Part shown: positions 19,179 to 20,467 of the stretch, piece by piece
How the letters are laid out: each line of letters starts with the position of its first letter
Position numbering within the stretch: the stretch's first letter is position 1
NCBI RefSeq assembly: GCF_001579845.1
Contig: NZ_CP007440.1
Span: forward strand, 5,292,029-5,356,028
Origin: Rhodoplanes sp. Z2-YC6860
GTDB lineage: Bacteria > Pseudomonadota > Alphaproteobacteria > Rhizobiales > Xanthobacteraceae
DNA: 64,000 bases
Reading direction: 5' to 3'
Notes under the pieces: model-generated
What the model saw: only the letters and a program-made list of their open reading frames with translations
Told to the model about the DNA's origin: nothing
The model's database searches: none
Translations under genes and position numbers: made by a program

Positions 19179-19247
19179 GGCGCGCTTCGGTCGATGGATG
19201 GACCGGAGCCATGCGGGTAGACCATCCCCACCTCATCCTTGTAAGTC

Positions 19248-19416
19248 ACGAATCGCTTCGTCGGCTAGAGTTGTCGGCGCGGTGGCGGACGGGAGACCGT
19301 CTCATCCTGGGGCTATGAAGCCCGGACCTCAGCACGGGCATCCGTCCGCCGTTCCATCGAACCCGAACAGTCGCGAGGGCCGCAAGCGAAGCCCGGTTGC
19401 GCAAGGAAGGGTGAAG
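19248..19416 (+). ncRNA. Predicted IS110 bridge RNA, copy 1
   Basis: The 5' end folds as expected for a bridge RNA. A 5' stem-loop ACGAA/TTCGT (19248-19261) comes first. The target-binding loop is closed by a perfect 9-bp stem GGCGGACGG (19284-19292) with CCGTCCGCC (19342-19350), an inner CCGT/ACGG stem and an apical GGGCT/AGCCC hairpin (19310-19323). The left target guide CTCATCCT (19301-19308) equals the left flank plus core. The right guide CCTCAG (19327-19332) is the reverse complement of core plus right flank CTGAGG. A donor guide ACAGTCGC (19367-19374) matches the right end of the element, and CAAG (19402-19405) complements CTTG at the left end. The RNA ends and promoter are not determined. 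Confidence 0.75.
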
Positions 19417-20349
19417 ATGGACACGATCTACGTTGGCATTGATGTATCGAAAGACCGTCTGGACGTTCATGTGCGCCCTGGCGGTGAGGCCTTTGCGGTC
19501 GAGCGGAACGGCAAGGGTCTGGAAGACCTGGTGGACCGTCTGCGAGGGCTTTCGCCTTCGCTGATTGCGGTGGAGGCGACGGGCGGCTTTGAGACGATCG
19601 TTGCGGCAGCGGTGGCTGGAGCTGGACTTCCGCTTGCAGTGGTGAACCCAGCTCAAGTTCGGCACTTCGCACAGGCCATCGGCAAGCGCGCCAAGACCGA
19701 TCCGATCGATGCGGGCGTGATCGCCCACTTCGCGGAGGCGGTCAAACCTGAGCCGCGGCCGATGCCTGAAGAAACAGCCGTGCTGCTCGCCGAGTTGGTC
19801 GGCCGGCGGCGCCAGATCATCGAGATGCTGGTGGCCGAGCGGCAGCGCGAGAAGCACGCCAGCAACGTGCGGGTTCGCAAGAGCCTGGCGCGGCACATTG
19901 CCGTTCTCGAGAAGGAACTGCCGAGCATCGATCGGGACATCGATGGTCTGGTTCGTGGCGCCCCGGTCTGGCGGGAGAAGGAGGACCTGCTCATCTCGGT
20001 TCCCGGAATCAAGAACACGCTGGCCCGCATCTTCCTCGCGGAAGCGCCTGAGCTCGGCAACCTCGATCGCCGTCGCATCGCAAGCCTGGCTGGTGTGGCG
20101 CCCTACACCAGACAATCGGGCCGCTGGCGGGGCAAGGCCATGATCGGCGGAGGTCGCACGGCGCTTCGCTCGGCTCTGTTCATTGCCGCCTTGACGGCCA
20201 GTCGCCACAACCCGGTGCTCAAGGCCTTCTACGCCCGACTGCTCGCCGCCGGTAAGCCAAAGAAGGTCGCGCTCATCGCGGTGGCCAGGAAGCTCCTCAC
20301 CATCATCAACGCCATGCTCAGAGACAGCAGAAAATGGCAAAACACTTGA
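19417..20349 (+). CDS. IS110-family transposase (DEDD recombinase), copy 1
   Basis: A 310-residue recombinase. The ATG at 19417 has AAGGAAGG seven bases upstream. The N-terminal RuvC-like DEDD residues are D9 (VGIDVSKD), E53 (AVEATGGFE), D95 and D98 (KTDPIDAG). A coiled-coil region lies at about 120-175. The C-terminal Tnp_20 domain has PGIKNTLA and the conserved serine S234 in [13 protein letters not shown]. All expected catalytic residues are present, so the enzyme should be active. It differs from copy 2 only at residues 304 (Ser/Asn) and 310 (Thr/Ala). Confidence 0.97.
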
Positions 20350-20364
20350 CGGGAGACACAGTCG

Positions 20365-20467
20365 CTGAGGAGCTGTGCGCAGCACCGCGTCTCGAAGGAC
20401 GAGGTGGACCGGTCGGTGGCCGCCGCATGGACGCGTTGCTTCGCAACGCTCCTCACCATGAGGCGGG
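20365..20467. repeat. Palindromic repeat split by IS110 copy 1
   Basis: The sequence right of the element reads CTGAGGAGCTGTGCGCAGC, then CGTCTCGAAGGACGAGG, then an inverted partner near ACGCGTTGCTTCGCAACGCTCCTCACCATGAGG. Joining the left flank (CCTCATC, 19231-19237) restores a complete repeat like those at 26160-26294 and 47202-47370. This shows the element landed in an existing repeat. Confidence 0.8.

Follow-up and report, generated by a model that had tools for sequence, protein, structure and literature searches.

The bridge RNA was defined by Durrant et al. (2024), who also reported REP targets of IS621 (PMC11208160). In that work, 144 of 173 mapped test insertions of IS621 lay in REP elements, guides and targets covaried over thousands of orthologues with the donor more conserved than the target, and the right donor pairing was discontiguous, with nine RNA bases on seven DNA bases (PMC11208160). 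REP-specific elements including ISPpu9, ISPpu10, ISRm19 and ISRm22 were described by Tobes and Pareja (2006), and each copy of these elements and of ISPa11 is placed at a fixed point of the host REP (PMC1525189). Siddiquee et al. (2024) showed that two segments of the ISPa11 seekRNA match the REP target, and that in ISEc11 and ISXne4, whose transposases are 72% identical, the target matches are swapped and the sites differ accordingly (PMC11187229). The principle is already known from E. coli and Pseudomonas, in that IS621, ISPa11 and ISPpu9/10 target REP and that guide-target covariation and natural re-aiming are published. The first-pass annotation of the locus described here overstated novelty, since guide RNAs directed at abundant palindromic repeats outside genes are on record for IS621 and ISPa11 (PMC11208160, PMC11187229). 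The present analysis adds a lineage, well resolved, whose target has changed repeatedly, in most cases to a palindromic site. Neither this IS110 lineage nor guides tracking several host repeats were found among the matches listed in the open-access literature. The host repeat 11-mers searched as text gave only unrelated papers among the matches listed, IS110 or intergenic repeats combined with Bradyrhizobium gave nothing relevant in the open-access literature, and PMC2817692 contained none of the taxon words looked for.

The window, which is the whole stretch of 64,000 nucleotides of Rhodoplanes sp. Z2-YC6860 that was analysed, contains at 19231-20370 an IS110-group element (element A) with an intact recombinase and a predicted bridge RNA at its 5' end. 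A second copy at 41899-43038 showed 99.6% identity to the first across 1140 nt, and a DNA search of the genome (one contig, 8.19 Mb) found five copies. Comparison of the five copies set the borders and gave the layout left target (C/G)TCATC, core CT, body TGTAAG...ACAGTCG, core CT and right target GAGG. As claimed at first pass for the sequence that the guides specify, both window copies read CTCATC-CT...CT-GAGG with a CT core. The three copies outside the window read GTCATC-CT...CT-GAGG, so that base -6 of the target is C or G. The features of the element in the window are as follows.

19232..19239, plus strand: left target CTCATC (19232-19237) and core CT (19238-19239) of copy 1, host repeat left arm (5-copy comparison)
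19240..20364, plus strand: IS110-group element body of copy 1, from TGTAAGTC to ACACAGTCG (5-copy comparison)
19417..20349, plus strand: IS110 recombinase P0001, 310 aa, with DEDD and serine residues aligned with IS621 (profiles, IS621 alignment)
20365..20370, plus strand: core CT (20365-20366) and right target GAGG (20367-20370) of copy 1 (5-copy comparison)
20365..20463, no strand: right part of the host palindromic repeat interrupted by copy 1 (near-matches and folding, outer end by eye)
41900..41907, plus strand: left target CTCATC and core CT of copy 2 (copy comparison)
41908..43032, plus strand: element body of copy 2, 99.6% identical (copy comparison)
41969..41976, plus strand: left target guide of copy 2 (copy comparison, covariance model)
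43033..43038, plus strand: core CT and right target GAGG of copy 2 (copy comparison)

The recombinase P0001 was above the cut-off for both PF01548 (DEDD) and PF02371 (serine) and for the NCBI model NF033542 'IS110 family RNA-guided transposase'. Alignment with an IS621 structure chain (E 5.7e-36) matched the D, E, D, D and S positions, which we take to be catalytic. The length of 310 aa falls within the range of about 300-460 aa of the IS110 group, and the spacing, with 177 nt of non-coding sequence from core to start and 15 nt from stop to right core, was IS110-like and not that of IS1111. Element A resembles IS621 in that the predicted bridge RNA lies upstream of the gene and has a target loop and a donor loop, in the left-then-right guide order (top-strand-like, then complement), in the extragenic palindromic repeat as target and in the discontiguous right donor pairing. 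However, target and donor sequences and the host group differ, and the recombinase is distant though clearly homologous. ISPa11, ISPpu9, ISPpu10, ISRm19 and ISRm22 share the fixed-point REP insertion, a likeness drawn from their description and not from the repeat sequence, but ISPa11 belongs to the IS1111 group, its RNA follows the gene and its guides come in the opposite order (PMC11187229). ISEc11 and ISXne4 are similar to the lineage of element A in their natural redirection among relatives; they form one IS1111-group pair, whereas the set found here comprises about 25 types of the IS110 group in eight right-guide classes, of which two occur in one genome.

Element A is very likely an IS621-like IS of the IS110 group whose own bridge RNA directs insertion into an abundant host repeat, mostly between genes. 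Its 5' non-coding end very probably encodes the bridge RNA, the target loop of which would pair with CTCATC-CT-GAGG through a top-strand-like left guide (19301-19308) and a right guide that is the top-strand complement (19326-19332). The donor loop would pair with the element's own joined ends ACAGTCG-CT-TGTAA, and the CT core would be the point at which the DEDD/serine recombinase inserts the excised circle. We infer from IS621 biochemistry that element A makes this RNA, forms a circle and exchanges strands. The predicted parts of the RNA in copy 1 are as follows.

19281..19424, plus strand: bridge RNA with target- and donor-binding loops, last 8 nt inside the gene (covariance-model match, 122.2 bits, E 5.7e-24)
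19284..19292, plus strand: target-loop stem, 5' arm, pairing with 19342-19350 (both sides change in 8 of 9 pairs)
19301..19308, plus strand: left target guide CTCATCCT (sequence, ncRNA alignment, guide-flank statistics)
19310..19323, plus strand: hairpin within the target loop (consensus structure, covariation)
19326..19332, plus strand: right target guide ACCTCAG, reverse complement CTGAGGT (sequence, alignment, guide-flank statistics)
19342..19350, plus strand: target-loop stem, 3' arm (consensus structure, covariation)
19367..19374, plus strand: left donor guide ACAGTCGC, matching the right element end ACAGTCG-C (sequence, alignments)
19397..19405, plus strand: right donor guide TT-GCG-CAAG, for which discontiguous pairing with CTTGTAA at the left element end is possible (alignment, IS621 pattern)

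Two alignments of non-coding ends were made, the first with 31 ends, including both window copies as one-base variants of element A (L001 and L005), and the second with 28. The RNAalifold consensus was a stem with an internal loop and a hairpin followed by a second loop, in which 10 of 27 pairs change on both sides; alignment and consensus structure showed two internal loops closed by helices, as in an IS621-type bridge RNA. A hand-written structure of 22 pairs had 97.2% of cells paired and nine pairs with both-sided change. On each of five measures none of 500 shuffles reached the observed value, and sliding this structure by 1-3 columns lowered the values. The covariation was confined to eight of the nine pairs of the target-loop stem and a single pair of the hairpin, and it puts both target guides in the internal loop that separates this stem from the hairpin. 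The donor-loop helices, being nearly invariant, were uninformative though consistent.

A covariance model was built from 15 elements that all lack a CTGAGG guide, with element A and its near kin held out. This model recovered both window copies (122.2 bits, E 5.7e-24). At the same places on the minus strand it gave weak matches of 22.2 and 19 bits, which probably reflect the palindromic stem. The folding energy of the element A RNA was no better than that of shuffled sequence (z about -0.5). The earlier proposal that the 5' end folds as a bridge RNA is thus upheld by covariation and the held-out model, on which the case for the fold rests, and not by folding energy. Its guides, CTCATCCT at 19301-19308 and CCTCAG at 19327-19332, were placed at the correct coordinates, and the covariance analysis put the guide loops there and not elsewhere. 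A search of Rfam 15 gave no match to the bridge RNA region at gathering cut-offs, and the matches at relaxed thresholds (sX15, minus strand; CC3664; chrB-b) were rejected as far below their own cut-offs.

Relatives of the recombinase were present in 2 of 11 genus genomes and 19 of 391 family genomes by protein search at E 1e-60 or better, and the donor-loop pattern in 6 of 397 genomes of an order draw and 2 of 385 of a class draw (own genome included in each). The family protein search scored at most five candidates per genome, a fourth G144 copy was left out, and a second collection of 15 loci gave 12 usable ones. Of 60 RNA rows, those without the family left end were removed before the statistics; these comprised distant IS110 elements (L061-L063, L067), the neighbouring element of L027 and chance matches in L024 and L027. 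Fragment loci L033-L035 and L037 were left out, and the guide statistics omit L023, L029, L030, L075 and L076 (no usable flank) and L005 (duplicate). For L029 a stricter script found no right end; its earlier right flank fits the guide and the left one fits poorly. Donor guides and ends were constant across the lineage, a constancy partly built into the sample because elements were recognised partly by donor sequences.

In element A, the left guide CTCATCCT and the right guide (CTGAGGT as reverse complement) spell the insertion site in all five copies, and the donor guides fit the joined ends (ACAGTCGC against ACAGTCG-C and TTNNNCAAG against CTTGTAA). A permutation test of guides against flanks was carried out for 25 types with both flanks (20,000 permutations). 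Outside the core, 116 of 125 bases agreed with the right guide, where permutation gave a mean of 52.9, and 111 of 150 with the left guide, where the mean was 71.3; no permutation came up to either value. The result held for the 16 types without a CTGAGG flank, with 73 of 80 bases for the right guide (permuted 47.3) and 64 of 96 for the left (permuted 42.9), again reached by 0 of 20,000 permutations in either case. Since the permutation takes related types as independent, sister pairs are the better control for kinship. At 46 of 48 distinct sites (26 RNA types, L005 counted apart), the four bases after the core were those specified by the right guide of the element itself; the misses were L026 and L088, the latter off by one base after the core. 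The first-pass annotation had staked its reading on the flanks of further copies, and these agreed with it at all five sites in the genome and at 46 of 48 in relatives.

The left guide was less strict, with agreement dropping away from the core from 25 of 25 types at -1 to 10 of 25 at -6. It carried the C of the core in 19 of 25 types and the T (second base) in 13 of 25 and was often mismatched there; the right guide carried the core CT in 25 of 25 types, and the reading of the core in the IS110 lineage of element A may fall mainly to the right guide. By eye, a one-base shift improved the left-flank fit of L028, L073 and, less clearly, L058.

The genome holds a sister, element B, in five copies (L006-L010) with 69% DNA and 64.9% protein identity to element A. 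Its guides are AAACCCCG on the left and a right guide reading CTCACCC; the right flank was CT-CACCC in 5 of 5 copies, and the bases left of the core were CCCC in four and CGCC in one. Element B was observed to inhabit a second dispersed host repeat, with flanks like CTCTCCCC...GGGGAGAGGGTTGGGGTGAGG, and its donor ends are nearly as in element A.

For the exact target CTCATCCTGAGG, 18 near-matches with at most two mismatches were found in the window against 6.05 expected, a number attained in none of 100 shuffles. Two unoccupied host repeats carry the exact target.

26270..26281, minus strand: unoccupied host repeat with exact target CTCATCCTGAGG (near-match search, folding)
47351..47362, minus strand: unoccupied host repeat with exact target CTCATCCTGAGG (near-match search, folding)

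In the whole genome the 11-mer TCATCCTGAGG occurred 91 times and its reversed control 0 times. Folding, done with no shuffle control, gave long hairpins for the joined flanks of both window copies and for the two unoccupied repeats, and by eye the 11-mer stood inverted at both ends of a unit of 92-144 nt in 9 of 20 sampled genome regions. These counts, hairpins and inverted ends bear out the claim that the site lies inside a dispersed palindromic repeat of the host. Two subtypes of this long palindrome were distinguished by eye, one with GTCATCCTGAGG followed by TG or CG and one with CTCATCCTGAGGAG. Across the lineage, window copies included, the junction was spanned by an inverted word of 8 nt or more at 37 of 46 sites, compared to 119 of 754 positions elsewhere in these flanks. 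Both window copies were among the nine sites that failed, with a score of 0 (no 6-base inverted word); they are imperfect palindromes. The host repeat is extragenic, palindromic and present in many copies, as are REP/BIME. The own genome yielded no match (E 0.001) to NF047646, the profile of the REP-associated tyrosine transposase (RAYT), and RAYT was rejected as the source of the repeat there; the repeat is therefore termed REP-like.

The abundance of target words was compared over chosen genomes, leaving out several types (G113/G144, G400, G109 and L025). Over 19 genomes TCATCCTGAGG ranged from 1 (G1144) to 102 (G349), with 77 in G290 and G251. It occurred 97 times in G061 though the element there has another guide, just 10 times in G136 despite a CTGAGG-type element, and 2 and 10 times in the genus mates G002 and G006, both without a CTGAGG-type element. 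Abundance alone thus does not predict the guide. The G1144 target GTCRTCCTGACG occurred 39 times in G1144 (control 0) and 0-13 times across 17 other genomes. The G494 target CACCTTCTCCC occurred 82 times in G494 (control 2) and 3 times in the own genome (control 4), and also 85 times in G144 and 48 in G611. The B-type target MCCCCTCACCC was found 36 times in the own genome (control 0) and 24 times in G103 (control 1), and 150 times in G144, whose element aims elsewhere. Counts of the degenerate target YCCTCTCCCC of the CTCTCC-type guides exceeded the control in G061 (99, control 38) and G199 (39, control 12); the excess was weak in G085 (84, control 68), and G611 showed none (15, control 16). 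This word was set aside as abundance evidence, being too low in complexity.

Genes were called with a simple codon-usage caller trained solely on the window. In a chosen list of 33 joined insertion sites, which leaves out the G1144 sites and some short-flank sites, 32 were outside called genes (31 of 32 when the doubled site L024/L054 is counted once). The sole exception was L068, with its junction 1 nt within a gene end. All five copies of element A were outside called genes, as were 26 of 31 sampled unoccupied 11-mers, compared to 250 of 2000 random positions (1750 inside). The suggestion that such a guide lets the element spread without breaking genes fits these sites. As the target is an arm of a palindromic repeat with dozens of mostly intergenic sites, element A has a wide choice of insertion sites that lie outside genes. 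The analysis documents the sequence anatomy of the element, the covariation of the RNA, the agreement of guides with flanks across the family, the abundance of the target and the position of the sites.

Recognition of the host repeat by the recombinase protein, with an incidental resemblance of the guides, would account for the correlation between protein and target, in that 7 of 9 CTGAGG-type elements fall in a single recombinase clade. We consider it very improbable, since the close sisters L028/L072 (84.2% identity) and L056/L059 (82.7%) have different targets, each in line with its own right guide, the guide-flank agreement survives permutation with the CTGAGG types removed, and the guides sit at the loop position defined for IS621. 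Hardly credible, and slightly less so than recognition by protein, is that the repeat-like flanks are part of the element or were copied along with it by segmental duplication, so that the copies would not be independent insertions. The core-adjacent bases common to all five copies speak for it. However, the flanks beyond the repeat and the inner parts of the repeat arms differ among the copies, and the uninterrupted 11-mer with a single CT is present 91 times in the genome; the differing flanks outside the repeat make the insertions look independent. Direction by the bridge RNA is thus the preferred reading for element A.

A recombinase tree of 26 members was made, leaving out L030 (by hand), L060, L075 and L076 (short alignments) and L005 (one-base variant of L001). 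The eight right-guide classes need 14 changes on this tree, where the minimum possible is 7; shuffled class labels needed a mean of 15.8, and 10 of 200 shuffles gave as few as observed. The CTGAGG types were clustered (0 of 500 shuffles as clustered). From these counts, guide class outside the CTGAGG clade is weakly tied to ancestry. In addition to L028/L072 and L056/L059, two more well-supported sister pairs differed in guide class, L073/L074 (75.3% identity) and L026/L053 (82.5%). It is about an even call whether the whole is one IS110 lineage with a fixed donor system, whose target loop has repeatedly been rewritten onto extragenic palindromes abundant in the host, with guides that track repeat families, sisters that share a genome through different repeats and possible movement by foreign guides. 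The collection provides some 25 natural bridge RNA types on one donor scaffold, together with their guides and landing sites. It can serve as a test set for which guide positions matter (right guide strict, outer left guide loose) and for the ease with which RNA-guided elements change target. The reason why such elements prefer abundant extragenic repeats, which offer many sites and leave genes unbroken, can also be put to the test with it.

As the donor loops are nearly identical, members of the lineage may move one another with foreign guides, and L026 is a possible case. L026 and L027 are the same locus on two MAG contigs with matching isolate labels, and the element lies at about 170-1310 in L026 and about 2810-3950 in L027. 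Its flanks are TCCAAC-CT and CT-ACGGC, the left one set by hand because the script start was wrong, and its own guides fit them poorly (right 0 of 5, left 2 of 6). A divergent IS110 lies about 60 bp from it on the other strand, with, by eye, the left guide CCCAACCT and a right guide reading CTACGCTG, which match the flanks of L026 better than its own guides do. It is possible, though we think it rather doubtful, that L026 was moved by the bridge RNA of another element; alternatively, its guide could have changed after insertion. Movement by the neighbour would agree with the better-suited flanks and with its left donor guide, whose only differences from the L026 donor, by eye, are wobble-compatible. 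Against it, the evidence is a single locus, and past the core just two bases of the neighbour's own right flank agree with the neighbour's guide. In G1144, which comes from another family of the class, nine copies of a related element (L087-L095) were found at GTCRTC-CT-GACG, one of them with GATG.
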